Origin: Rhodobacter sp.
Lineage (GTDB): Bacteria; Pseudomonadota; Alphaproteobacteria; Rhodobacterales; Rhodobacteraceae
NCBI GenBank assembly: GCA_020250175.1
Contig: JADCEN010000027.1
Coordinates: 1 to 43,325, forward strand
Length of the DNA stretch: 43,325 nucleotides
Direction of reading: 5' to 3'
In this document: positions 9,145-34,539 of the stretch, piece after piece
How positions within the stretch are numbered: position 1 is the first letter of the stretch
Layout of the letters: each line of letters begins with the position of its first letter
The notes under the pieces: model-generated
Told to the model about the DNA's origin: nothing
The model's input: the letters and a program-made list of their open reading frames with translations, nothing else
The model's database searches: none
Translations under genes and position numbers: made by a program

Positions 9145-9663
9145 TTATGGAACATCGCAGATCAGGGCGCTGTCCGGCATCCCGGCCGTGCGCACGACTG
9201 TCATCAGCAATCCGAAGCCAAGAAAATGCTGGATGGGATCGCCACCGGTGCCTGCGATTTTCTTCAGGGCACCGATCAGCTCCATCCACCTGCGTTCCAC
9301 AAGATCGCGGATCTCGGGATGGTCGCAGGCCGCAAACCCCTGCAGCAACATCTGCATTTCTGCGCGTGACAGGCTGTCGTAGGCATTTCCGACTTCTGTA
9401 AGGGTTTCGACGGACGCAGGTTTTCCCACCGCCTCGGCCTGGAAGGTTCCGATGACCGTATTGAAAACCTGATCAAGGGCGGCAAGGAAAAGCTGTGATT
9501 TGGTTTCCCATATCTTGAACAGATAGGGCTGCGAGATGCCGACAGCTTTCGCAATCGCACCGGTGGACGCCGCGTCCAGACCATGGGCTGCAAACTCACG
9601 GATTGCCGCAGTCACCAGGTCGTCCTTTCGTTCTTCAAGGGTCTTTCTTGATCCGGTACTCAT
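9145..9663 (-). CDS. TetR/AcrR family transcriptional regulator
   Basis: The 172-residue protein has an N-terminal TetR DNA-binding domain: KDDLVTAAIREFAAHGLDAA, then the helix-turn-helix STGAIAKAVGISQPYLFKIW at about residues 33-52, and FETK-like WETKSQLFLAAL. The rest is a helical ligand-binding/dimerisation domain of normal but short length. A palindrome spans the bases just upstream of its start codon (9664-9685), a classic arrangement for autorepression. The gene downstream encodes a membrane protein in the same direction and is the likely target. The ligand cannot be inferred. Confidence 0.9.
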   Translation of the reverse strand: MSTGSRKTLEERKDDLVTAAIREFAAHGLDAASTGAIAKAVGISQPYLFKIWETKSQLFLAALDQVFNTVIGTFQAEAVGKPASVETLTEVGNAYDSLSRAEMQMLLQGFAACDHPEIRDLVERRWMELIGALKKIAGTGGDPIQHFLGFGLLMTVVRTAGMPDSALICDVP

Positions 9664-9685
9664 GTAGTGAGTTATCAGTCACTAC
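9664..9685. promoter_or_regulatory. Palindromic TetR-type operator
   Basis: The sequence GTAGTGA (9664-9670), an 8-base spacer GTTATCAG, and TCACTAC (9679-9685) form a perfect 7-bp inverted repeat directly against the TetR start codon. Size and position fit an operator for the adjacent regulator. Binding is inferred. Confidence 0.6.
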
Positions 9686-10122
9686 ATTGCATGTGTCAAG
9701 ATCAGACAGCACACTGCCCATGGCATCCGCTTGCCCCGCCGCTCTGCCCGAATCCCGCGGCCAGCCAGTTCCGGCACCGCCTTGCGCAGGAGCTTGAGGT
9801 TCGCAGGGTCCGCCATCAGCGCGGTGAAGCGCAAGTGCGTCGGCTGCGATGCGAGCCCAGGCCACGCAAGCGGCACCCGTCCCGCCGCCAAACTGACGGA
9901 CAGCCGTGACCGGCTGTGCGTTTCCTCCATCCGTGCGTCCGATGCCGCTGCCGGATTCTGTCCGGAAGCCTCAATCCACAGTACTTTCAGCCAAACGCAA
10001 CCTTTCCCGCCCGCTTGCGCGAATAAGCCGGATCAAGGGGATCGCGGCTTCGCCCTGAAAGGGTGCTGGCCAATGGCGAAAGGCGGGTTCCAAACCGGCG
10101 GTTGATCTGCCAATCCTGCCGC
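9686..10122. other. Stretch without a recognisable gene
   Basis: Between the TetR operator and the DUF2306-like gene, open frames exist on both strands (for example a minus-strand frame 9930-9682), but none has a recognisable domain, a convincing ribosome-binding site or continuity with neighbours. The minus-strand frame contains MADPANLKLLRKAVPELAG, which looks protein-like and could be a gene relic; I could not identify it. Confidence 0.4.
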
Positions 10123-22664: not shown

Positions 22665-25253
22665 CTAGGCCAGGTAGTCAGCAGCTGCGTCGCTCTCGTA
22701 CAAGGCCTTGATTGTCGTAGCCGTTGCGACGGCGGCTCGGGTGCCAGGCTCCGTCAAGTCAAGGACGCGGAATTTGTCGCCAATCTTCGCAACAGCTTCG
22801 ATCCGGCGATACTGGCCACCGAATGTCTCTGCATAGCGGGACAGCCCCTTCAACTTTGGCATCGCATCGCCGAACTGGATGCCATGCGGGTCGACTATGT
22901 CGGCAACGACTGATCCATCGGCCAGTTGACCAAGAAATACAAAGTCAGGACGAACGATCTTCGTTTCCTCGCCCTCCGCGTAGATGATGCCGAGCGAGTC
23001 CTGACTGGCTCTGGAAGGGTTGCGATACCATCCCAACGTCCCCGCCCGCTTCAGTTCGGCATTAACGACTTCGCCCTCCCAAGTATTGAAGTCCTCTGGG
23101 AAAAGGCCGTCATCGCCGCACAAGAGATGCCGCTCGAAGCGAGGCAGCGGCGTTTCGTTGCCGTTGGCCTCCCGGATGACTGTTGGCTGCATCCACGACG
23201 TCGGGCGCGCTAGATCAACCTCCATCGGGTTGGCGCTCATTTCCCGGATCTGCCGGTAAACGTCCTGCCGTTCGTCTGACAGGCTCTTGATCTGGACTCG
23301 ATACTTGGAGAGCCACTGCGTCGCGAGCTTCTCTGCCTCGGCCTCCAGCGCCTCCTTTACTTGCGGCACCAGCCCAAGCGCCGCAACTGTGACGTGAGCT
23401 TCAATCAGCGCCCCTTCCAGGTCGTCTGGATCGCCGTCGGCCCTTGCAATGAAGTCGCTGTACGTCGTGGCCAGATCCGGGCTGATGGCACGCCCAGCCC
23501 TGCGGTAGGCATCTTCGATCACCGCATAGTCTGCGACTTCGAGGAAATCATCGAAGGTCATTTCCCCGGCCTTCATATCGGTCTTCAGGCTCTTGCCCTC
23601 GACCGTCATCACCGCATGTCGTGACGCAGTGATCTCGACCTTGTACCTGGCTCTCGTTCCCTCAAGGACTTTGTGCATTTCAGCATGCGCGAGCTTCCCG
23701 GCTTCTGCCAGCAGCCCGTCTGCTGCGAGTTCATGCGCCAGCGAGGTCAGGCGCTTTACCGGGCGGGCCTGGCGCTTTGGCAACGTCTGGGATGGCAACG
23801 ACACCAGCTTTTCCCACACGGCTTCCGCGATGGCCGGATTGGGTTTCATCTCGGCCGGATTGATCAGAACGCGACGGCCAGGAAGGTCGTCGCCGCCATC
23901 GCCACCCGACATCAGGGCCTTGGCCACTTCGCTGACCGACTGTTCGTCGAAGAACGGCAGCAGGCAGTCGACGGCGTTCAAGCGATCATTGCCCGGGATG
24001 CGGCGCGCGAGGGGCGTGCGCACCATGCGGCCGAGCAACTGCGTGATGTGGGTCTTGTCCTTGGCTGGCCTGAACGAGACCATGACTTCTGCGCGAGGAC
24101 AGTCCCAGCCCGTGCTGATGGCGTCTTTGGCGATCAGGATCCGCACCCAGGTCGACTCCTGCACGCGCTCGGGCGAGATGTAGGGAACAGTGTGCCGACC
24201 GAAGGTCTGTACGGTGTGCTCGCCAAACACATGCGCCACGGCGTCGTCGGGCAGGTCCGGCCATCGGTCATAGATCGTGTCGAGCGCCCGGCCGATGTCG
24301 TTCGGGTCGGGGGAATTCGGCACCTGCAGCACCATCAGCGGCAACACGGTGTCCGCGTCATTTTGCGCCTGCGCATAAGCCGCCCACGCCGCCGAGATGT
24401 CCTTCAGCTTGTCCGTGCCACGCCGGACGAGCACGGTGTCGAACTGACCCACCTCCTTCGGCACGTCGAGGATGATCGTATCCTTCAACAGGCCCGAGGC
24501 TTGCACCTTGGCGGAATCCACCACCACGTTGGGAAGCGTGGCGCGGCCCTGCATGTCCGTCATCGCGGCGTTGAAGCGATCAACCGTCGCCGAGATGCCC
24601 AAGACGACAGGAATGCCGGGAACCGAGCCGGTCCCGTTGATCAGCCGCTTGACGATGGTGGTCTTCTCGCCCGCCCCGGTGGCCGCGCGCATCCCGCGAT
24701 GCGCCTCGTCCAACACCAGATACAACGTCAGCGCCGGATCATCGATGGTGTTCTGGATCGTATCCCAGATCGTGAACGACCGCATGTCGGGCATGATCCG
24801 CATCTGGCCGTCTTTCTCGATGCCTTCATCATCGGCATCGTGACCACGGACCAGCAGGCTCGATTTGCCCAGCTTCTGGGTGTTCAGGAAATAGATCTTC
24901 CCCGCCTCCAGCGTTTCCCGCTGGAAGGTGCTTTGAACCACCACCAAGTCCGAGATCGAGATGCGGTCGGATGCCTCCAACAGGCGAAACCGGGACTGTT
25001 CGTTCAGGGACGGATCGTCGCTGAACCAGATCACCACCGCGCCGGGATCGGGTTCGATGTCGTAGTTGTCATCCCCATGGAACAGCGCCTCGAACACGGC
25101 CGCCGCCATCACGGTCTTGCCCGCGCCGGTAGTCGCGGTCAGCGAGAACGCGTGCTTGTCCTTGTCCTCGCGCCAACGGCGTGACGCCTTCTTGAGGTTG
25201 ACCAGCACGTCCTTGACGGCTTCTTCCTGGTAGTCTTTCAGCGTGAATTTCAT
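22665..25253 (-). CDS. Type III-like restriction system helicase (Res) subunit
   Basis: The 862-residue protein is an SF2 helicase/translocase expected to drive DNA cleavage or blockage with the adjacent methyltransferase. It shows LKDYQEEAVKDVL, Walker A TTGAGKT (41-47), DEAH box LDEAHRGM (182-185), SAT (221-223), TGWDCPRAEVMVSFRP and the motif VI-like QLLGRMVRTPLARR. The C-terminal region has RPDFVFLGQL then VVADIVDPHG, where a PD-(D/E)XK nuclease would be expected, but the ExK triad end is replaced by DPHG, so the nuclease is divergent or absent. Start ATG at 25253 is three bases after the Mod stop. The stop faces tRNA-Ser. Confidence 0.85.
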   Translation of the reverse strand: MKFTLKDYQEEAVKDVLVNLKKASRRWREDKDKHAFSLTATTGAGKTVMAAAVFEALFHGDDNYDIEPDPGAVVIWFSDDPSLNEQSRFRLLEASDRISISDLVVVQSTFQRETLEAGKIYFLNTQKLGKSSLLVRGHDADDEGIEKDGQMRIMPDMRSFTIWDTIQNTIDDPALTLYLVLDEAHRGMRAATGAGEKTTIVKRLINGTGSVPGIPVVLGISATVDRFNAAMTDMQGRATLPNVVVDSAKVQASGLLKDTIILDVPKEVGQFDTVLVRRGTDKLKDISAAWAAYAQAQNDADTVLPLMVLQVPNSPDPNDIGRALDTIYDRWPDLPDDAVAHVFGEHTVQTFGRHTVPYISPERVQESTWVRILIAKDAISTGWDCPRAEVMVSFRPAKDKTHITQLLGRMVRTPLARRIPGNDRLNAVDCLLPFFDEQSVSEVAKALMSGGDGGDDLPGRRVLINPAEMKPNPAIAEAVWEKLVSLPSQTLPKRQARPVKRLTSLAHELAADGLLAEAGKLAHAEMHKVLEGTRARYKVEITASRHAVMTVEGKSLKTDMKAGEMTFDDFLEVADYAVIEDAYRRAGRAISPDLATTYSDFIARADGDPDDLEGALIEAHVTVAALGLVPQVKEALEAEAEKLATQWLSKYRVQIKSLSDERQDVYRQIREMSANPMEVDLARPTSWMQPTVIREANGNETPLPRFERHLLCGDDGLFPEDFNTWEGEVVNAELKRAGTLGWYRNPSRASQDSLGIIYAEGEETKIVRPDFVFLGQLADGSVVADIVDPHGIQFGDAMPKLKGLSRYAETFGGQYRRIEAVAKIGDKFRVLDLTEPGTRAAVATATTIKALYESDAAADYLA

Positions 25254-25256
25254 GGC

Positions 25257-27395
25257 TCAGCGGCCCATCGCAAAACGGAAATTGGAAAGGTAGGACTCGT
25301 AGAGCCGTACCGGTTCGATGGTGTCGGGCAAGGCCCGCGTAACCGCTTGAAAGCGCCGGTCGTCGTCGGTGACGATATAGGCTACGCGCAGGCCTTCCAT
25401 GGCCACAGCGGCAGCACAGAACTCAGTCGCGCGGTCCAGGTCCACGAGCAGGCCGTAGGTGTCCGCTATCTCCCAACCCTGCGCGGGTAGATCGTCGATC
25501 CGGCGGCCCTCTAACCCGGCGCGCATCCACAGCAGTGGTGCGACCCGCTGGAAGGCGAGGTTGTGGCTGACGGCAACCGGGGCCTCATAGGTCAGGGTGA
25601 AGAACTCGGCGTTCTCCTCGAACCCCTCGGCCATCGGGAATTCGTCGGTGAACTTGTAGTCGCCTGCGATGGGCTGGCCGTCCGGCGTTTTGCCGGTGAT
25701 GGTCGCCGCGATCCGGGGCTTGGTGATGTAATCGCAGATGCCCCATTTCTCCCACTCAGGGTCGCCCGCGCGCAGGCCTGCCTTGCGCAGGGTGGTCTGT
25801 TCGTCAGCGGCCACCTCGTTGTTCGTCACCGAGATGCACTGCCGCCGCCCGCCATCCTGCCGGTTCAGGCGCATGACGGCATGGGCGGTGGTGCCGGAGC
25901 CGGAGAAGAAGTCGAGGATGGTGGCGTCTCTATTTCTGCCGACAACAAACCGAAGGCAATCTTCAACAGCATAGACCGACTTCGGATAGGGGAAACGTCG
26001 ATTGGGCACCAAAGCCTTCAATAGGCCCGCGCCATGTTCCGATGCGCTATGCGCAACAAGATTCCAGATGGTTGTGGGATTCCGCGTACCAAAAGCATCA
26101 GCGAACTCCAATTCAAGTGCGCCTTCCGCATCCTTTCCAACCACTGCGACCTCTCCGCTCTCGATCATTTGTCGGATGCCAGTTTGCAGATAGGAAATAG
26201 ATCGAAGCCCTGTCGACCTATCCCTTTTACCGAATTTCGCATGGCCGATTGCGAGATACTCGCGAAACGACGGCGGGCTGAGACGCCACATTAACTCTTG
26301 ACCAGACTGGTCGATTGGAAAAATTGCCAATGTCCCAGGTGGAGAAGGGATGTCCTCGGGACGAATATCCGGGGCCGGCGGTTCTCCGGTCGAATGGTAC
26401 CTACCAGTCTTCGCATCAATATAGATTGGAAAGAACATCGAAGGGATGCGCTGGCGTCGACTTCCTTCACCATTGCGCATCAACCCCGCCCAGCGGACCT
26501 TCCGCCCCTCTTCATCAACTTCACGAAGCATATCAGAACGCCAAGGAGTGACTGCCGCTGCTCCAAGGAAGACGAAATAGATGTACTCATCCACACGGCT
26601 AAAGCGACCCGATCGCGCCGAGCCCTTAGGATTAATCACGGAGCTGATCATCTGAACCGTGGCATCAGGAAAAATCTGCTCGAGAAGCAAACCCAGTCTG
26701 AGGTACTCCTTTTCGTCGATAGTAACGATCAACGTGGAAGCAGCTGGATTTAACAGCTCTCGCGATATCAATAGCCTGCGCTCAATGAATGCCAACCATT
26801 TGGAGTGGCGATACAAGTCCTCTGATTCGACATAGTCGTTGTTGTATTTCCAATCCTTCGCCCCGGTATTATAAGGCGGATCGATGTAAATCGCGTCGAT
26901 CTTGCCCCGGTGGGTATAGGTCAGCGCCTCCAGCGCATGAAAGTTCTCGCCGTTGATTACCGTGTGAAAGGGCTTGTCGCCGCCCTGCGTCACCTTTCCC
27001 GTGCTGACCAGCCCCGGATAAATGTAGTCCCGGAACTCGGCCACTACGACCAGATCAGCAACCGGCACCTCCGCGTTCTCAGGCTCGGCCGCGTCGATCA
27101 GCGACAGATGGGCGACCCGCGCCTCCCCCGCTCCTTCCAGCCGCAGCACCCGCCACAGCCGCTGATCCCCCTTGGCCGTGGACCCGCGCTGCGGCAACAC
27201 ATGCACCTTGTCGCCCCGCCGGATCGGGCGGCCGGGCAGTTCCACGCTTTCGGGCTTGTGCCGCTCAAAGTTCAGGCCGAAAGCCCGCCGTGATGCCAGC
27301 GCCTTGAACTCGCGGTCAAGCTCATCCCCCAAGGCCGGGTCCTTCGCCTTCGCCCGTGCGATCAGATCCGTCAGTCGCGACACGTCAAACCTCAT
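25257..27395 (-). CDS. Type III-like site-specific DNA methyltransferase (Mod)
   Basis: The 712-residue protein is a beta-class N6-adenine (or N4-cytosine) methyltransferase: catalytic motif IV IDPPYNTG (171-178) precedes the SAM-binding motif I DFFSGSGTTAHA (near 488-500). Between them lies the target recognition region of about 300 residues, encoded by DNA visibly lower in GC and with different codon choice from both flanks (roughly 25,930-26,880), as expected for a swapped recognition domain. N-terminal ~140 residues contain a VHVLPQRG-type beta-rich segment unlike classical EcoP15I Mod. It is coupled to Res downstream. Its ATG overlaps the stop of a small upstream ORF (ATGA). Confidence 0.9.
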   Translation of the reverse strand: MRFDVSRLTDLIARAKAKDPALGDELDREFKALASRRAFGLNFERHKPESVELPGRPIRRGDKVHVLPQRGSTAKGDQRLWRVLRLEGAGEARVAHLSLIDAAEPENAEVPVADLVVVAEFRDYIYPGLVSTGKVTQGGDKPFHTVINGENFHALEALTYTHRGKIDAIYIDPPYNTGAKDWKYNNDYVESEDLYRHSKWLAFIERRLLISRELLNPAASTLIVTIDEKEYLRLGLLLEQIFPDATVQMISSVINPKGSARSGRFSRVDEYIYFVFLGAAAVTPWRSDMLREVDEEGRKVRWAGLMRNGEGSRRQRIPSMFFPIYIDAKTGRYHSTGEPPAPDIRPEDIPSPPGTLAIFPIDQSGQELMWRLSPPSFREYLAIGHAKFGKRDRSTGLRSISYLQTGIRQMIESGEVAVVGKDAEGALELEFADAFGTRNPTTIWNLVAHSASEHGAGLLKALVPNRRFPYPKSVYAVEDCLRFVVGRNRDATILDFFSGSGTTAHAVMRLNRQDGGRRQCISVTNNEVAADEQTTLRKAGLRAGDPEWEKWGICDYITKPRIAATITGKTPDGQPIAGDYKFTDEFPMAEGFEENAEFFTLTYEAPVAVSHNLAFQRVAPLLWMRAGLEGRRIDDLPAQGWEIADTYGLLVDLDRATEFCAAAVAMEGLRVAYIVTDDDRRFQAVTRALPDTIEPVRLYESYLSNFRFAMGR

Positions 27396-27601
27396 TCTTC
27401 GAATTGCGCGCGGGCCAGGCCGACATGCAGCCGACCGTCCCCGCTTCCGCTATGGAGCAACCGGAGGTGAGCAGGCAACGCAAACCTGTCGTCCGGATAC
27501 CGGTCCGCAGAGGATGGATCGCTGGAGCGTTGGGTTTCATGCATGCCCTCAAAAGCCGGATGGCGACGGCCTTGCCGAACGCCCGGGATTTGAGCTGACA
27601 T
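27392..27601 (-). CDS. Small hypothetical ORF coupled to mod
   Basis: A 69-residue frame ends ...GDGRLHVGLARAQFEE with its stop overlapping the Mod start codon (ATGA), the spacing seen for genuine coupled genes in this island. I do not recognise the sequence and the N-terminal part (MSAQIPGVRQGRRH) looks unconserved; it may be the tail end of a degraded gene. The 128 bases between it and the next gene hold nothing I can identify. Confidence 0.3.
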   Translation of the reverse strand: MSAQIPGVRQGRRHPAFEGMHETQRSSDPSSADRYPDDRFALPAHLRLLHSGSGDGRLHVGLARAQFEE

Positions 27602-27729
27602 TACCGCCGTTTACCGTGTGAGACTAAGCTGCGGACCGCTTCGAGCGCAAGCCGAATGCGGCTGAGATCACCAAGGCAGACAATCGGGGGTGTGTGGACG
27701 GCCATGGCGCCGCCGCAGCCAATACCTGG

Positions 27730-28494
27730 TCAGAACAGGGCCAACTGCCCTGTATCGTTCACCCGCAGAACGCCCAGCAGCTGCCAGGTCTGCGGGCGTT
27801 TGGCCATGTTGCCGAGGCAGAACAACATGCCCTTTCGAGGATATTCTTCATTGAAGGTCGCATTCATCCAATCAAGCGTTGCGCGCTCCGACCCCTCGCG
27901 CCTCAGCCCATTGAAGAACATCGCGTGGGCTTCCCAATCCCCGTTGGCACAGTCGTGCTGCCCTGCGGCGTCTTCAAACTTGAAGCGGAAGTCATATGGG
28001 CTGGGCTCCAGCGCTTTCAGCCGCTCATCGAAGAAGGAATCCTGACGCGCTGCGTCGGCGTAGATGCGCCGCTCTTGCTCAAGTTCGTCTGGTTTCTTCG
28101 GCTTGTAGTAGAAGCGGGTGTTTCTGGGGCGGATGAGCGCAAGCGACCGCCCCGCGGCTTCGGCATCCTTGAAGGATGCTGACACCAAGCGATTGAGAAA
28201 GGGGGCGCGATCCTTCGGGGGCATTTCACCGTTCACGACAATGCTGTCTTCCCAAACGCGACAGCTTTCTGGCCGCCGATCGCTGGTTGGAAGGCGGTAT
28301 TTGAAATCGACCCAATCCCAACGCTTGAACGTGGCCTCGTCGGCAAGATGCCGAAATCTGACAGGAAAGAGACGTTTGAACTCGCCGTTGGGGGTCACCC
28401 CGGCGCAGCAAACCGTTTCCCCTTGTGTCGCGCTACGCTGCGGTAAGGCTTTCACCAAGATGGAAACGCGGCAACTTTGCGGCGTTACGGTCAT
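27730..28494 (-). CDS. Conserved DUF488-partner protein, function unknown
   Basis: The 254-residue protein has an N-terminal beta-rich region, VSILVKALPQRS, GETVCCAGVTPNGEFKRLFP and FKRWDWVDFKYRLP, followed by RPESCRVWEDSIVV, then a charged middle (ARPKKPDELEQERR-like) and C-terminal DWEAHAMFFN and QTWQLLGVLRV. From memory, similar proteins are found next to DUF488 genes and are thought to hold OB-like folds; no activity is known. The chosen ATG at 28494 lies inside the end of the DUF488 gene, giving a 62-base overlap, supported by the continuous beta-strand pattern at the N-terminus. A later in-frame GTG would cut into that pattern. Probably acts together with DUF488. Confidence 0.7.
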   Translation of the reverse strand: MTVTPQSCRVSILVKALPQRSATQGETVCCAGVTPNGEFKRLFPVRFRHLADEATFKRWDWVDFKYRLPTSDRRPESCRVWEDSIVVNGEMPPKDRAPFLNRLVSASFKDAEAAGRSLALIRPRNTRFYYKPKKPDELEQERRIYADAARQDSFFDERLKALEPSPYDFRFKFEDAAGQHDCANGDWEAHAMFFNGLRREGSERATLDWMNATFNEEYPRKGMLFCLGNMAKRPQTWQLLGVLRVNDTGQLALF

Positions 28495-28948
28495 ATCGAT
28501 CTGGATCATCGGCAAAAAGGTTGAAAATATCGAAGCCCGTCTTTTCGGAGACCTCATTTGCGACAATCGTCCGATGGCACGTCTCGGGATCGCGTTCGAA
28601 GCAGAGTAGGCATGTCGACGCTGCCTGCACGGTTTCCGTCAGTTCCGTCAGGGCGCTCTGCGCATCGTCCGTCAGGATGTGCGCGCCGTAAATCGAACGG
28701 AATCGGTCATACTCACCGGCGCGCGCTGCTTCCCTGCCAGGTTTTGGATCACCGAGCGAGACGAAATGAATGTAACGTATGCCTTCGTCGGCGAGGCGTT
28801 CGGCCAGCTTCTTCTTCGAAAACCCGGCCTTGCGAGAGACCGCGACCGCACGTACGTCAGCCAGCTGCCGTACACCGGCCGCCTTCAGGGTCCGGACGAA
28901 CCGATCAATATCGGTCCCTTCATATCCAACTGTGAATAGAACGCTCAT
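28433..28948 (-). CDS. DUF488 domain-containing protein
   Basis: The 171-residue protein begins MSVLFTVGYEGTDIDRFVRT and carries the DUF488 landmarks TVGYEG, LADVRAVAVSRKAGFSKKKL, YIHFVSLGDPKP and the cysteine-containing CLLCFERDPETCHRTIVA near residue 120-135. The function of DUF488 is not established; the conserved Cys/His pair hints at a nucleotide- or metal-related activity. AAAGAGG precedes the ATG at 28948. Here it overlaps an OB-like partner gene by 62 bases and lies between a serine recombinase cassette and a restriction-modification pair, a typical defence-island setting. Confidence 0.85.
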   Translation of the reverse strand: MSVLFTVGYEGTDIDRFVRTLKAAGVRQLADVRAVAVSRKAGFSKKKLAERLADEGIRYIHFVSLGDPKPGREAARAGEYDRFRSIYGAHILTDDAQSALTELTETVQAASTCLLCFERDPETCHRTIVANEVSEKTGFDIFNLFADDPDRYDRNAAKLPRFHLGESLTAA

Positions 28949-29003
28949 GCCTGCCTCTTTTTGAAACCCTAGCACGGGCAGTTGCCCCCGTGAATCCCCT
29001 GAT

Positions 29004-29414
29004 TCAGCGGGATTCATTGTCAATGATGGACATTGCCAGATGATGGCGCTGTTCCGACCAGTCGGACGGTAACGGCTCGCGCAGCGCCTCCAGCGTGAGG
29101 CCGCGCGGCTGTCGGCCATCCAGAATCGCCTCGACAAGATCCGGCGCAAGCTGTGCGAGCCGCATGGTCCGCGTCAGAAAAGGTGCGGCGATCCGTTCGT
29201 GCTGAGCCAGATCGGCAATGGTGGAGAACTCGCCCGTGTCCAGCATGCGTTTCCAGCGGAAGGCGCGCGCCAGCGCCTTGACCAGCGTGTCGTCGGTTTG
29301 GCGAGGGGTCGACCTGTCGGTCGGCAAGACCATCTCTTTCCGCCCGCCGCGCTTCACAAGGCGGAACGGGACATGCACGGTGATGGTATCTGGGATCGCC
29401 TTTGCGCGGGTCAT
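29004..29414 (-). CDS. Conserved recombinase-associated small protein
   Basis: The 136-residue product begins MTRAKAIPDTITVHVPFRLV. Its middle shows a helix-turn-helix-like stretch, STIADLAQHERIAAPFLTRT, followed by LAQLAPDLVEAILDGRQPRG, reminiscent of the ParB/KorB-type or resolvase-associated HTH region. From memory, such short proteins follow DUF2924-recombinase pairs in many alphaproteobacterial islands. It overlaps the recombinase stop by four bases (ATGA), so it is translated with it; a DNA-binding accessory role in recombination directionality is a reasonable but unproven guess. Confidence 0.75.
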   Translation of the reverse strand: MTRAKAIPDTITVHVPFRLVKRGGRKEMVLPTDRSTPRQTDDTLVKALARAFRWKRMLDTGEFSTIADLAQHERIAAPFLTRTMRLAQLAPDLVEAILDGRQPRGLTLEALREPLPSDWSEQRHHLAMSIIDNESR

Positions 29415-30715
29415 GCCGCCGCTCCCTCATTTGGAGTCATCTCTCGCGCCAACGCCGCCAGCCCGTCCGTGCGCAATCGCACATTCATGCCATCGGCGAT
29501 GATGTCGACCCGCTCGACCAGAAGCGCCACAATGAGCGCCTGCTCGGCGGGGAAGAGTTCGTCCCATAGCGGGTCAAGCCGGGAAAGGGCTGTGTAGGCC
29601 TCTGCCTCATTGATCCCCGCATCTTTCTCTCGGGCCGCCTTCCACGTGCCCGCGACGATTTCTGGCTGGCGAAACACCGCGCGCAACTGGTCGATAACGG
29701 CAGCTTCGATCTCACCTGCGGGCACGCGGCCCACAGGGCACGATCCGGCGCCATGCTTCAGGACCGTCTGGCTGACGTAGTAACGGTATAGCCGCCCGCC
29801 CTTGCGGGTGTGGGTCGGGGAAAATGCAGCGCCATCGGGACCGTAGAGCAACCCACGCAACAACGCGGGCGTGTCAGCGCGGGTCCGCGCTGCGCGCTTG
29901 CGCGGGCTTTCCGTCAGGATGGCATGCACCCTGTCCCATGCCTCGATGTCGATGATCGCCGCATGCTCGCCTGGATAGCTTGTCCCCTTGTGGACCGCTT
30001 CGCCAATGTAGACCCGGTTGTTGAGCATCCGGTAGATGAACTTCTTGTCGATGCGGTGGCCACGTGCGGTGGTGACGCCCCGCTCGGCCAGTTCGTGCGC
30101 CAACAGTGTGCCGGAACCGATCTCGATGAACCGGGCGAACACCGAGCGGACATGGTCGGCATCGGCGGTCTCGACCAGCTTCCGGTTCTTGACCTCGTAC
30201 CCTAGCGGCGGGCAGCCGCCCATCCACATCCCCTTCATCCGGCTGGCGCGGAACTTGTCGCGGATGCGTTCGGCCGTCACTTCGCGTTCGAACTGTGCGA
30301 AGGACAGTAAGATGTTCAGCGTCAGCCGCCCCATAGACGTGGTGGTGTTGAACGACTGTGTGACGGAAACGAAGGTCACGCCGTTCCGGTCGAACACCTC
30401 GACCAGCTTGGAAAAATCCATCAACGAGCGGGATAGGCGGTCGATCTTGTAGACGACCACCACGTCAACCAGCCCATCCTCGATGTCGGCAAGCAGCCGT
30501 TTCAGGCCGGGGCGTTCCAGCGTGCCACCGGAGATGCCGCCGTCGTCATACTGATCGCGGACCAGCACCCAGCCCTCGGACCGTTGACTGGCGATGTAGG
30601 ATTCGCAGGCCTCGCGCTGTGCGTGCAGCGAGTTGAATTCCTGCTCCAGCCCTTCTTCAGATGATTTGCGGGTGTAGACGGCGCAGCGTAGCTTGCGGAC
30701 GACAGGTTTGTTCAT
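29411..30715 (-). CDS. Large serine recombinase
   Basis: The 434-residue enzyme is a site-specific serine recombinase/integrase that would move the surrounding island. The resolvase domain has the catalytic Ser in VYTRKSSEEG (Ser18), the arginine-rich YKIDRLSRSLMDF, and FAQFEREVTAERIRDK. It is followed by the recombinase domain GGCPPLGYEVKNRKLVE and KKFIYRMLNNRVYIGE. A zinc-ribbon-like region (GLLYGPDGAAFSPTHTRKG...SCPVG) has lost most of the expected cysteines, which is common in this subgroup. A C-terminal helix follows. Start ATG at 30715 overlaps the DUF2924 stop. Frame upstream to 30823 belongs to the DUF2924 gene region. Confidence 0.93.
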   Translation of the reverse strand: MNKPVVRKLRCAVYTRKSSEEGLEQEFNSLHAQREACESYIASQRSEGWVLVRDQYDDGGISGGTLERPGLKRLLADIEDGLVDVVVVYKIDRLSRSLMDFSKLVEVFDRNGVTFVSVTQSFNTTTSMGRLTLNILLSFAQFEREVTAERIRDKFRASRMKGMWMGGCPPLGYEVKNRKLVETADADHVRSVFARFIEIGSGTLLAHELAERGVTTARGHRIDKKFIYRMLNNRVYIGEAVHKGTSYPGEHAAIIDIEAWDRVHAILTESPRKRAARTRADTPALLRGLLYGPDGAAFSPTHTRKGGRLYRYYVSQTVLKHGAGSCPVGRVPAGEIEAAVIDQLRAVFRQPEIVAGTWKAAREKDAGINEAEAYTALSRLDPLWDELFPAEQALIVALLVERVDIIADGMNVRLRTDGLAALAREMTPNEGAAA

Positions 30716-31167
30716 GCTGTCCTCCGGTGGTTTTTCAGCCCGAAGAAGACCCAACCGTTCCACCGCGTCCCGGTGATTGCGCGCGCAATGGCAGAAAGCG
30801 ACTGGTATGGCCGCCCCTGCCATTCAAAGCCACCTTGAGTCACAGTGACGATCTGTTCGATGCCCTGCCACTCGCGCAGCAGCCGAGTGCCGGTGATGGG
30901 GCGGTCGCGATCGGCGCGGATACGGCGCGTGGTGATGTTGCCGCCATCAAGCTGTTCGCCCAAGGCTTCCAGCCGCCGGATCGTATCGGACTTCAGCCCG
31001 CCATAGGCCAGTTCCTGGATACGGTAGGCCAGCCGGGATTCAAGGTAGCGGCGGTTGAAAGGCGGTGGTTCGGTTTCGAACAGGTCGCGCCACTGTGCCT
31101 TCAGGTCCGGCGTAGATGTGGTCTTCAGCGCGGCCAAGCGCGCGGGGATGGGGTCGGATTTCGTCAT
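30712..31167 (-). CDS. DUF2924 domain protein
   Basis: The 151-residue protein, starting MTKSDPIPARLAALKTTS, has the DUF2924 pattern LKAQWRDLFETEPPPFNRRY, LESRLAYRIQELAYGGL, GTRLLREWQG and GGFEWQGRPYQSLSAIARAI, ending TRWNGWVFFGL. DUF2924 proteins are almost always encoded next to large serine recombinases in alphaproteobacterial mobile elements and are presumed DNA-binding helpers; mechanism unknown. It overlaps both neighbours by four bases, giving a tightly coupled cassette. Confidence 0.9.
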   Translation of the reverse strand: MTKSDPIPARLAALKTTSTPDLKAQWRDLFETEPPPFNRRYLESRLAYRIQELAYGGLKSDTIRRLEALGEQLDGGNITTRRIRADRDRPITGTRLLREWQGIEQIVTVTQGGFEWQGRPYQSLSAIARAITGTRWNGWVFFGLKNHRRTA

Positions 31168-31367
31168 GCTTCTCTCCGGTGGCTTGGAGTTGCATGAAGG
31201 CATTGATCGGGCGGACAGTGTAGGCAACTTTCTCCAGTTCGGTCAGAGACTTCGCCCCGTTCCCGCATCCGCAGCCGGATCAGTCCGAGCGCCAGCAACC
31301 CGCACAGTTCGGTGCGACGGGCGGTGGGGCTCATCTGATCGGGTGGCAGGGAGTTCGGGCGTTTCAT
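31164..31367 (-). CDS. Small conserved protein of the DUF2924-recombinase cassette
   Basis: A 67-residue protein, MKRPNSLPPDQMSPTARRTE, continuing LCGLLALGLIRLRMRERGEV, ends CLHATPSHRREA. The core (MSPxxRRxELxxLLAxGLIRLR) recalls small proteins that I remember at the head of DUF2924-recombinase cassettes. The stop overlaps the DUF2924 start (ATGA). The start at 31367 is preferred; an ATG at 31376 is possible. Function unknown. Confidence 0.6.
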   Translation of the reverse strand: MKRPNSLPPDQMSPTARRTELCGLLALGLIRLRMRERGEVSDRTGESCLHCPPDQCLHATPSHRREA

Positions 31368-31376
31368 GAAGGGCAA

Positions 31377-31646
31377 TTCCGTGCTGGCTTGCCTTTCTCC
31401 TACTCATGGCGGTGACCAACTGTCCCACACGGTCAAGAATGCGCGAAGATCGCACCACGGACTCGACTCGAAGTTGTTAGATCGGGTAGAACATAATCAG
31501 AACTTCAGTCACTCCCTTCCGGCCAGACAGGAGCACTTCGAGCGCCAAATGGAGCGAAGTGCCATTGGGTGCCGGGTGAAACTGAAGACCTACAGGTGAC
31601 TTGATTGAGCCCATGATCTGAATAGTCGGTGTCAAGAGGAGAACGT
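31377..31646. promoter_or_regulatory. Divergent intergenic region between recombinase cassette and unknown pair
   Basis: These 270 bases separate the leftward recombinase cassette from the rightward two-gene unit and must hold promoters for both. AT content is higher than in the neighbouring genes. I saw no convincing -35/-10 pair or palindrome; AGGAGA at 31635-31640 is the ribosome-binding site of the rightward gene. Confidence 0.4.
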
Positions 31647-32885
31647 ATGGCCAAAAGGATCCGCAACTTCGTCGACCGCGCGTTTTCTCGGACGGTTGAT
31701 CTGCAAATGCTGCATCGTCTTCTCAGCCCCTATCTCGGACAGATCGGAGTGGATTGGGATGCGCTGTCCGACGACGACGGCAAACGGCGCGAGGCAATTT
31801 TCGATCTGTTTGCCAAAGCCGATTTGAAGTTTCCGGCACCGCTCCAATTCGCTCTCTACAACATTTCCACGCTGTCCACGGATTATGGCGCCCGGTTCAT
31901 CCAGGAGATCGCGACGGAAATGGGTGTCAACGTTCTGGCGGCCCACCGTATCGACGGCAGTCCTGACGATCTGCGTTTCAACCCGCGCTTCATGGCCTTG
32001 GCCACATGGCTGGATCATCGAGTCGTTTTCGACAGGGCGCTGAGCGCGGCGGCTTTCCTCGCATACTCGAGCAAACTCGAGCGCGACGCCGACCGCGAGA
32101 ATGTCGAACCCAGACATCATGAAAAAGGAGTGCGGGAGGCGTTCACCGAAGACGTGCGGCAGCATTTCGTCGGACGATACAACGGGCATTATTGCGACGT
32201 GCGGTGGTTCGAGGAGGAGGACCTGCTTCGGGTGCTGATCTTGCATGGCTCCAAGCCTGAGACGAAGAACGTTGACCAAGAGGGCGCGGAGGATACCCTG
32301 AAATTTCGGGAAATCGTCCAGTCGACCATCGAATACGATCTGCGACAGGGTGCGATCGCGGTCGGCTCGAAGTCGGCAACCGATGCCAAAAAGCTGGTGA
32401 AACTGTTTGGCGGTCACGTCCTTGGCGACTCGAACATCTTCGAGGCTTCAGCGAAGGAGCAACTTTACACGCTCGAGCCGCTCCAGCGGCAAGGCGGAGC
32501 GTTTAAGTTCCACTTCGATCCCGAAGGTGACATCACCCATGTTGCCCTGCGCGAGGTGCGCGTCGACGAGGCTCAAATCACAAGGACGGGGCGGCTGCGG
32601 CGTTCGCCATGGTTCCTGACGCTGGGCGACTCCGAGAACGCGCTGAAGCGCTTGAAGGTCGTCGCGCCGGAGATCGAGATCGACGACGTCCGGATTGTCC
32701 ATGCCAAGATCGATGTGACAATCGAGGTGGACGGCAGCGAGATCGTGGTCCCAGTGACGATCCGGCCGCCGCGCACTGTGAGCATGCGCGATCACTCACA
32801 TGAACGACTCATCCTCGAGATGCTTGAAAAGAATGACGTTCGCAAACGCCGCAGAACTGATCAAGCTGCTGTTGCGGCAGAGTGA
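31647..32885 (+). CDS. Unknown protein, first gene of an undescribed two-gene unit
   Basis: The 412-residue protein starts MAKRIRNFVDRAFSRTVDLQ with AGGAGA eight bases upstream. It is acidic, soluble in appearance, has no signal peptide or membrane segment, and no nucleotide-binding or nuclease motif I can name. Residues ~1-130 look helical (MLHRLLSPYLGQIGVDWDAL, FALYNISTLSTDYGARFIQE); ~150-330 look mixed alpha/beta with HYCDVRWFEEEDLLRVLILH and FKFHFDPEGDITHVALREV; the C-terminal 80 residues form a beta-rich segment (VHAKIDVTIEVDGSEIVVPV) ending in a basic tail KRRRTDQAAVAAE. It overlaps the next gene by 53 bases, implying joint synthesis. The place between a recombinase cassette and phage genes suggests an accessory, possibly defensive, role; that is inference. 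Confidence 0.75.
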   Translation: MAKRIRNFVDRAFSRTVDLQMLHRLLSPYLGQIGVDWDALSDDDGKRREAIFDLFAKADLKFPAPLQFALYNISTLSTDYGARFIQEIATEMGVNVLAAHRIDGSPDDLRFNPRFMALATWLDHRVVFDRALSAAAFLAYSSKLERDADRENVEPRHHEKGVREAFTEDVRQHFVGRYNGHYCDVRWFEEEDLLRVLILHGSKPETKNVDQEGAEDTLKFREIVQSTIEYDLRQGAIAVGSKSATDAKKLVKLFGGHVLGDSNIFEASAKEQLYTLEPLQRQGGAFKFHFDPEGDITHVALREVRVDEAQITRTGRLRRSPWFLTLGDSENALKRLKVVAPEIEIDDVRIVHAKIDVTIEVDGSEIVVPVTIRPPRTVSMRDHSHERLILEMLEKNDVRKRRRTDQAAVAAE

Positions 32886-33828
32886 TCGCCATCCGATCCG
32901 CGCCATCGGCGCCGCAGAACTGGAGCCCCACGATCCGCGCTTCCTCCGGTCGCTGCGGAACGTCGGAATTCTGGTGGCCCGAGAAGATCTGCCCGACGAT
33001 GGTGACTCGATCTTTGAGGTCATCGACGGTTCCCTGATCGTCGTCGATCCAGAGACAGGGGAGTGCGAACGTCACGACGATGCGCTGGACATCCAGACCT
33101 TCGACATCGACATCGCCGCCCTTTGCCGCGCGATCCGCGAGCAATCAGGGCTGAAGGGGTCCGGCCCGATGGCGATCTCCACCAGAGTTTGGAGGCTGGG
33201 TCGCTATGAACAGCACGGGCGCGCAGCCGAAATCTGCCTTGTGCGGCGACTGCAGGAGGAAACCGCGCAGGAGATTTTGGACCATGTGCGCGGCACCATC
33301 GACACCGAAAATCCCGTCGCTCTTGTCAGCCTCGGAAGCAACGACCTGCCGACTGTGGTCACGCGCCAACTCAGTGGCCTCCGCATGACCGTGTCTCGCG
33401 CCGAAGATCTGCTGCGCGACGACCCGGATCGTCCATTCGCACTTGATCTCGGCCGAGTTCGCGTACCCACCGAAAAGCAAGCCCTCGATGCGCGGCTTCA
33501 GATCGACCGCATTGGTCGCCGCGCAATTTTCGAGGGCGTCGAGATCGACATCGAGCCTCGTGACTTTGACGCCGTCGCCTTACTCGCGGACGAGGCCTTG
33601 GCCGCCGGCGGTTGGGTCTCGAAGGAAAGCCTGGCTGCGACGCTGCAAGCTAGCACCAAGCGGGATAGCAATCCGGAACAGGTTGATCGCTGCATCAACC
33701 GGCTGCGCGATGCCTTCCGAAAGAATACGCGGCTAAATGCGGTCCCCAGCAACGGGTTCATCGACCGCAAGTCCAAGGTCGGCGCACGCCTGGTCCTCGC
33801 ATCATCCGAGATCGCGTTCATCGGCTAG
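32833..33828 (+). CDS. Unknown protein with C-terminal winged-helix-like domain
   Basis: The 331-residue protein (ATG 32833; an ATG at 32800 is the alternative) has an N-terminal region with FANAAELIKLLLRQSDRHPI and PHDPRFLRSLRNVGILVARE, a middle part rich in beta-strands (NPVALVSLGSNDLPTVVT), and a C-terminal ~100 residues resembling the OmpR/PhoB winged-helix fold: an initial EGVEIDIEPRDFDAVALLAD, recognition-helix-like QVDRCINRLRDAFRKNTRL and a final hairpin NGFIDRKSKVGARLVL. No receiver domain or kinase partner is present, so it is not a two-component regulator. It may bind DNA or act as an adaptor for the upstream protein, with which it is co-translated. Family not recognised. Confidence 0.72.
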   Translation: MTFANAAELIKLLLRQSDRHPIRAIGAAELEPHDPRFLRSLRNVGILVAREDLPDDGDSIFEVIDGSLIVVDPETGECERHDDALDIQTFDIDIAALCRAIREQSGLKGSGPMAISTRVWRLGRYEQHGRAAEICLVRRLQEETAQEILDHVRGTIDTENPVALVSLGSNDLPTVVTRQLSGLRMTVSRAEDLLRDDPDRPFALDLGRVRVPTEKQALDARLQIDRIGRRAIFEGVEIDIEPRDFDAVALLADEALAAGGWVSKESLAATLQASTKRDSNPEQVDRCINRLRDAFRKNTRLNAVPSNGFIDRKSKVGARLVLASSEIAFIG

Positions 33829-33945
33829 ATCCGTTCGCCGGTACCGGGAGGTTTTCAGGAGGTTTCCGGGAGAAGCCCGAGAGATAAAGGATTTCAAAAG
33901 GTTGCATCTTCGACTGGTCAACGCAAACGACCAGGATCGAAACAG

Positions 33946-34539
33946 ATGCTCCCACCTATTTCCCCCGACGACCTTGCCACACTGATTGACGAAGCGGCCA
34001 TTGCCGCGCGCCGCCTGCATCGCAAGCTGGTGCTGCCCGCTGCCGATCTCGACGATCTCCGTCAGGACCTGCTGGTTGACCTGATCTGCCGGTTGCCCGG
34101 ATTTGATGCGCGCCGCGGCAGCATTGGCGCCTTCGCCAACATCGTCCTGCGCAACAAGTCGTCCCGGATCGCGATCCGCCATCACCGGCAGCGCCGTGCG
34201 CAATGCGGGACTGTGCTGTCGCTCGACGCACCCATCGCTGGCGGGACGGAGCCGCTGGGCTGCCTGTTGGCAGAAGCTGACGGGCTGGCTGCCTGGCATG
34301 GCCGGGACCTGAGCGCGACCGAGGATGCCGATCTCCGCTATGACCTTGCCCTTGCGCTGGGTGATCTGCCCGAAGATGCGCGCACCCTGTGCGCTGCGCT
34401 CGGCACCTGCGCAATCGCAGAAATCGTCGTCCGCACCGGCACCTCCCGCTCCGCCCTTTACCGCCACGTCGCCCAGTTGCGGCTCGATCTCGCGATGCGC
34501 GGGTTCGGGGCGCAGTGGGACGGTTCCCAGGCAGCGTGA
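33946..34539 (+). CDS. Sigma-70-like/ECF-type regulator, phage module
   Basis: The 197-residue product has a sigma region 2-like stretch, DDLRQDLLVDLICRLPGFDA and GSIGAFANIVLRNKSSR, and a region 4-like C-terminus, LPEDARTLCAALG, then GTSRSALYRHVAQLRLDLAM. This two-block layout matches ECF sigma factors or sigma-like phage regulators, although the HTH is short and degenerate. It is the first gene of the long plus-strand early module and could direct its transcription. It lies 117 bases after the unknown pair; this gap likely holds the module's promoter. Confidence 0.7.
   Translation: MLPPISPDDLATLIDEAAIAARRLHRKLVLPAADLDDLRQDLLVDLICRLPGFDARRGSIGAFANIVLRNKSSRIAIRHHRQRRAQCGTVLSLDAPIAGGTEPLGCLLAEADGLAAWHGRDLSATEDADLRYDLALALGDLPEDARTLCAALGTCAIAEIVVRTGTSRSALYRHVAQLRLDLAMRGFGAQWDGSQAA

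Follow-up and report, generated by a model that had tools for sequence, protein, structure and literature searches.

Genes A and B of a Rhodobacter contig appear to form an exchangeable regulatory cassette conserved in tailed prophages of Alphaproteobacteria

The window, the whole 43,325-bp stretch of DNA analysed here, is one entire contig of a 3.9-Mb draft genome (86 contigs). It contains two rightward genes of interest, A (31647..32885, + strand; ATG at 31647, stop at 32885; 412 aa) and B (32833..33828, + strand; ATG at 32833, stop at 33828; 331 aa). Both reading frames are open and overlap by 53 bp. Longer alternative starts are present for A (GTG at 31629) and for B (ATG at 32800). Divergent from A lies a DUF2924 gene (30712..31227, − strand; PF11149, E 7e-51), and beyond it are a serine recombinase, which is a probable phage integrase (29411..30823, − strand; Resolvase, E 3e-38; Recombinase, E 3.8e-13), and a small ParB-like gene of the integration module (29004..29414, − strand; TIGR00180, E 0.0025, below cut-off). 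The gene in the same place as the latter in phage AcaML1 is annotated as 'site specific recombinase small subunit'. The DUF2924–recombinase module also occurs in Wolbachia phage WO and Acidithiobacillus phage AcaML1, and the stretches fetched from these phages (L188, L189, and L190) contain no A or B by profile.

Downstream of B, with no insert in between, is a sigma-70-like gene (sig; 33946..34539, + strand; sigma70-ECF, E 1e-6; Sigma70_r2, E 1.2e-4; both below cut-off), the first gene of the replication operon. To its right are genes of unknown phage families, a Sak4-like ATPase, a Cas4-like exonuclease, a helicase, and a VapE-type primase-helicase. An inverted repeat, CTGGTC-N9-GACCAG (33914..33934), can be read just upstream of the sig start codon. 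By eye, many relatives have an inverted repeat of different sequence before sig, and a CGGCA-like element lies ahead of it in many. To the left of the integration module (22665-29149, − strand) are a type III restriction-modification pair (PADLOC; methyltransferase, E 1.4e-298; restriction subunit, E 1.2e-9) and PDC-M19A/B-like genes, one of which has DUF488. In another locus, L052, genes for res, mod, and an M19B-like protein recur at this position, 84, 86, and 80% identical to those of the window. Two overlapping genes of 412 and 331 residues sharing 53 bases, set between a recombinase cassette and phage replication genes with defence-like cargo nearby, are what the original prediction described, and this description holds.

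Protein A belongs to no named family that we can recognize. It has no matches in Pfam, NCBIfam, or PADLOC (E up to 0.1) or in PHROGs (E up to 0.01). Among solved structures, neither sequence nor profile searching finds a relative, apart from one chance-level row. Four types of A have no match in the phage-record collection, and the A query P0001 has no close relative in the plasmid collection. The predicted structure of A comprises a helical N-terminus followed by a putative RdgC/CENP-N-like fold at approximately residues 139-406. In particular, comparison of the predicted model points to a resemblance to RdgC, CENP-N, and Iml3, the last two belonging to the CENP-N/CENP-L (Chl4/Iml3) group; the RexA structure 8twq is absent among the structural matches listed for A. 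The resemblance has no counterpart in sequence: A has no Pfam match to RdgC (E up to 0.1), its profile aligns with E. coli RdgC by hhalign at a probability of 0.1, and it has no detectable sequence similarity to RexA.

Protein B is predicted to consist of an N-terminal helical/wing region, a middle alpha/beta domain, and a C-terminal winged helix. The model places an OmpR/PhoB-type winged helix, the fold of Trans_reg_C, at approximately residues 214-324. In the window, Trans_reg_C is the sole Pfam family matched by B, below cut-off (E 0.0045), and it is clearer in the relatives of B, 5/9 members of which match it at E up to 1 (best, 1.4e-8). No receiver family, the N-terminal domain by which two-component response regulators are recognized, is found among the nine members (Pfam, E up to 1). 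The middle part matches Can2 and other nuclease entries only weakly and presents no catalytic motif by eye, and we set aside a nuclease reading of B. The hydrophobicity of B reaches a maximum of 1.07 over 19 aa; no hydrophobic segment is present. PhoB, a member of the OmpR/PhoB winged-helix family, targets tandem 11-bp direct repeats.

Among genomes, A is matched in 15 of 292 genomes of the order and in 7 of 385 genomes of the class, own genome counted in both cases. Eight relatives of B come from named genomes, and they make a host within the Rhodobacteraceae most likely. The closest is from a Rhodobacter MAG (97%), and the other seven carry the labels Paracoccus, Salibaculum, Rhodobacteraceae, Rhodovulum, Chelativorans, an alphaproteobacterial MAG, and a MAG labelled Halothiobacillus. 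The locus set (n = 146) comprises 130 loci from four scans of virus contigs (22, 41, 16, and 51), 15 genome stretches, and the window; because these loci are related, the number of loci is not a number of independent events. Of the 141 loci with room for B, 134 have it after A, indicating that the pair is more than chance. In all seven loci without B (L053, L056, L099, L100, L106, L133, and L164), A is truncated, frame-broken, or interrupted by an in-frame stop; a broken A also occurs in some B-positive loci (L044 and L046). For L165, the end of B is misplaced in the set.

The surroundings of the pair are conserved as well. The sig gene lies downstream on the same strand in 120/138 loci with room, and a divergent DUF2924 gene lies within 1.2 kb upstream of A in 101/121. 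The 18 loci without sig include 11 of the type iii clade and 5 with a damaged A; the 20 loci without the divergent DUF2924 gene are 18 of type iii and 2 with a damaged A. The type iii clade consists of 18 loci (L054, L057, and L107-L122), in which A–B stands beside a leftward Cas4-like gene, with an ATPase further rightward. By eye, a hairpin-like sequence follows B in some type iii loci. A GpA-type terminase (PF05876) is present in 33 of 34 longer records picked from the 130 loci, indicating that the carriers of A–B are tailed phages. Terminase family PF03237 matches just 4/34 records, weakly. The interval between B and sig serves as a cargo slot, filled by an insert longer than 800 bp in 38/118 loci (for example, L083:8290-9942, L092:5100-8864, L048:11367-12053, and L049:11406-12488). 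Ten cargo proteins were scanned; three match PADLOC (HNH; PDC-M55C/HEC-05; PDC-S68), and six match Pfam, with HNH and GmrSD_N among the families.

Upstream of A is a box of the form GAAC-N7-GAAC (31489..31503), 158 bp from the gene and the sole such box in the window. The Caulobacter LexA motif is given as GTTCN7GTTC in PMC12700426, and SOS box papers on R. sphaeroides and P. denitrificans are cited in PMC1839093. GAAC-N7-GAAC agrees with the Caulobacter motif, and we read it as the alphaproteobacterial LexA box. The host lexA gene has two such boxes (-44 and -55), and host recA has one (-64). About 1.5 boxes per window are expected from background, so the box of the window counts solely through its conservation. 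In the locus set, a box is present within 300 bp upstream of A in 110/123 loci, most commonly at -43, -26, and -44. It is found in 16/22 representatives of 60% B clusters, where shuffles expect 0.22/22. The spacing of seven is specific: other spacings from 2 to 15 reach at most 15/123 loci. Across 145 loci, 112 boxes fall within 300 bp upstream of A, and boxes elsewhere number approximately 1.5 per 43 kb.

Thirteen of the 123 loci have no exact box. Seven of these have a one-mismatch version (shuffles, 101/650), which is at the usual position in five and far off in L046 and L095. The box is at -43 in two of six class-level loci (L058 and L060) and absent in the other four, and among the 16 type iii loci whose upstream sequence is long enough, 12 have an exact box. 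All eight additional loci from named genomes carry it upstream of A, although every one of the eight is of the type found in the window, L177 comes from a genome that was in the set before, and some may be repeats of virus contigs. With GTTC-N7-GTTC in the promoter region, A–B appears, as far as the motif goes, to be a candidate member of the alphaproteobacterial LexA regulon. A sigma-70-like promoter is not apparent at either A or sig.

A second candidate element lies between B and sig. Four head-to-tail 11-bp units ending in GGGAG, AGGAG, GGGAG, and GAGAG (33840..33883, + strand), approximately 63-106 bp upstream of sig, form the predicted B operator. In the window, the stack score has a P value of 0.005, which is the floor of 200 mononucleotide shuffles, and lag 11 is the best among 25 lags. 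The operator pattern occurs once in the window (0.01 expected), and the whole genome contains this one exact copy and one site with three mismatches elsewhere. The 11-bp pattern was first spotted by eye in the window and in the same loci, so that the statistics quantify it and are not a blind test.

The repeats recur in other loci. Lag 11 reaches P < 0.05 in 18/23 representatives, and 9/23 reach P 0.05 with any lag allowed; for L044, L054, and L055 there is no sig position and the sequence downstream of B was used, and one cluster (L029, L030, and L043) entered with a wrong B ORF. That cluster is absent from the 22 box representatives and from the 21-representative control. A four-unit stack is significant (P ≤ 0.01) in 16/22 rows with sig, or in 15/21 without the artefact cluster L029, and 16 of 22 stacks begin between -98 and -108 of sig. 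In the 21 representatives, the mean lag-11 score upstream of sig is 15.9/24 vs 10.0 (sd 0.61; z 9.5). The corresponding z values upstream of six other gene starts are 2.1 for A, -0.7 for DUF2924, 0.7 for g118, 0.7 for aaa, -0.9 for d669, and -1.6 for g266. Nine type iii loci show no 11-bp repeats, either after B or ahead of A. Tandem 11-bp repeats of the kind that the OmpR/PhoB family binds are present upstream of sig, as the predicted target of B.

The repeat units differ with the type of B: GGGAG-like in the window's type, CCCACC in type ii, CACAC in the L051/L052 group, and CCACG in L141. At L170, B is only 23% identical to that of the window, and both its repeat (GGGAGGAT/GAGAGGAT) and its recognition-helix region are window-like by eye, a single case that is only suggestive. 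In addition, the operator adjoins B and could travel with it by linkage alone.

A and B vary together and nearly independently of their flanks. In the 79 loci with all five proteins, the distances of A and B correlate with a Spearman rho of 0.91. The flanks also co-vary (sig and the serine recombinase, rec, 0.84; sig and g118, 0.66; rec and g118, 0.49), whereas A or B vs sig, rec, or g118 gives 0.12-0.31. Of 3081 locus pairs, 151 have A below 35% yet sig above 75% identity, and 153 have A above 75% yet sig below 70%. For example, L052 has a sig 85% and a recombinase 80% identical to those of the window, but its A and B are 24% and 19% identical.

Taken together, tailed prophages of Alphaproteobacteria carry A–B as a conserved regulatory cassette that is open to exchange, and not as a free defence pair. 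The original prediction had proposed a defence, regulatory, or conflict module. The regulatory part is well supported; defence and conflict find no support, in that there is no PADLOC match and the pair is a fixed prophage part. It had also claimed that no named family covers A and that B ends in a winged helix without a receiver, and both statements stand, the latter through the OmpR-type match in relatives and the predicted fold. The fold comparison it called for assigns B to the OmpR/PhoB type and suggests, by predicted fold only, an RdgC/CENP-N-like class for A. Its expectation of an independent pair is upheld for the co-occurrence of A and B but not for their independence, as the pair is fixed beside the replication operon of one prophage family; with sig downstream in most loci, this comes close to what the prediction itself named as grounds for its rejection, homologues always found in core phage operons.

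We propose, with a probability of roughly 0.7, that A–B is an SOS-triggered lysis-lysogeny control cassette of these prophages and that B activates the sig/replication operon. In the lysogen, host LexA would occupy the box upstream of A and keep A–B off, as the conservation of the box suggests. In the SOS response, DNA damage leads to RecA-promoted cleavage of LexA. A and B would then be made together. The fold of B and the spacing of the repeats suggest that B would bind the four 11-bp repeats before sig through its winged helix and switch on the sigma-like/replication operon. We infer the direction in which B acts, as an activator and not as a repressor. Protein A would be a constant partner, whose RdgC/RexA-like predicted fold suggests that it could assist through non-specific DNA binding in the way that lambda RexA does; this contribution to the action of B is the weakest step. 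By swapping the whole A–B–operator cassette, lineages would set the switch specificity of each prophage. Mitomycin induction is reported for roseobacter and Paracoccus prophages (PMC9044938, PMC6536676, and PMC3925955), whether or not these are A–B carriers.

The inventory of phage repressors bears on this proposal. No Peptidase_S24 (CI/LexA-type) domain is found in the 34 A–B phage records. An HTH_3 protein, of the other usual repressor type, might be a separate repressor and is found in eight of them (seven over cut-off). The other 26 have neither S24 nor HTH_3, a count that covers these two families only and records that may be fragments. At L055, a LexA-like gene (9224-9877, − strand, G283; S24-looking by eye) lies directly upstream of A–B, the only such case seen. 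In the Paracoccus phages covered by PMC6536676, which are of the tyrosine-integrase kind, the CI-like proteins are XRE-type and only one has S24. A stronger version of our proposal, which we regard as rather doubtful, is that this large family has no CI-type repressor: host LexA would repress, and a swappable activator pair with its 11-bp operator, including a co-activator of RdgC/RexA fold, would constitute the whole switch. The HTH_3 proteins lower the odds of this version. If it is true, A–B types would define induction groups without immunity repressors.

The main rival to activation is that B, together with A, serves the prophage as its repressor, keeping the sigma-like/replication operon off through the 11-bp repeats, and that the LexA box tunes its level or serves the DUF2924 operon. 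The cassette indeed sits at the usual place of the immunity repressor of temperate phages, it is exchanged as a unit like immunity regions, and the S24-type repressor is missing from the 34 records. However, with a LexA box near A in many loci, SOS would raise the repressor just when induction is expected, and the predicted operator lies upstream of sig with no second copy at A's own promoter (window, up to three mismatches). We consider a repressor role unlikely.

The RdgC-like predicted fold of A, the LexA box, and the Sak4-like and Cas4-like recombination genes downstream would also fit an SOS-induced recombination or replication accessory, in which A would counteract RecA in the manner of RdgC and B would regulate neighbours only. 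But the predicted operator is before sig and not before A, and A co-varies with B and not with the downstream genes measured, which fits a specific A–B pair; we therefore hold an accessory role to be very improbable. Marginally less probable again is a role in anti-phage defence or superinfection exclusion, with A as a RexA-like sensor and B as its partner. In its favour, the predicted fold class of A includes lambda RexA (PMC11077077), and defence-like cargo adjoins A–B. Yet neither protein matches a PADLOC family (E up to 0.1), B has no hydrophobic segment and therefore is no RexB-like membrane protein, A–B is constant and not optional in these phages, and a type-specific operator before the replication operon would be unexpected. 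A–B does not supply the RexA homologue together with the membrane RexB by which RexAB exclusion is recognized.

Activation of the sig operon by an SOS-controlled A–B amounts to a specific, testable induction switch for prophages of Rhodobacteraceae and other Alphaproteobacteria, a large and little-studied group, and it puts a name to each of promoter box, operator, and regulator. If true, SOS-controlled induction systems would gain a new protein architecture, and natural regulator/operator pairs would be at hand for studying how winged-helix specificity changes. Lytic control by proteins of the RdgC/RexA fold may then also extend beyond lambda.

No system known to us places an OmpR-type regulator that has an 11-bp operator, along with an RdgC/RexA-like partner, directly under LexA. 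A literature search, which covered few subscription journals, returned no paper that appeared to describe the A–B pair; PMC10811719 and PMC11409702 concern other systems. Salmonella prophage antirepressors are under LexA control (PMC3121763). Like these and Tum of coliphage 186, A–B would place the gene that starts induction under host LexA and not under cleavage of a phage repressor. Tum and the Salmonella antirepressors inactivate a phage repressor, whereas the 34 A–B records have no S24 repressor and B is a predicted DNA binder upstream of the replication operon. SetCD is FlhCD-like and is released by loss of SetR, not directly by LexA; in contrast, A–B combines an OmpR-type winged helix with an RdgC-like predicted fold. 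The likeness is that SetCD of SXT/R391 is an SOS-triggered two-gene activator that starts element-wide expression (PMC4344509). In phage GIL01 (with gp7), host LexA directly represses phage transcription, as predicted here, but there it binds boxes in the phage lysogenic promoter P1 (PMC4551915), whereas here it is predicted to act on the activator pair. B differs from OmpR/PhoB response regulators in its N-terminal and middle parts and in that no receiver domain is found. Lambda RexA has an RdgC/CENP-N-type fold; it biases the phage towards the lytic state, and this effect does not depend on RexB (PMC11077077). Unlike RexA and RdgC, to which it has no sequence similarity, A has an extra N-terminal helical region in the predicted model, and its partner is a predicted winged-helix protein, not RexB.
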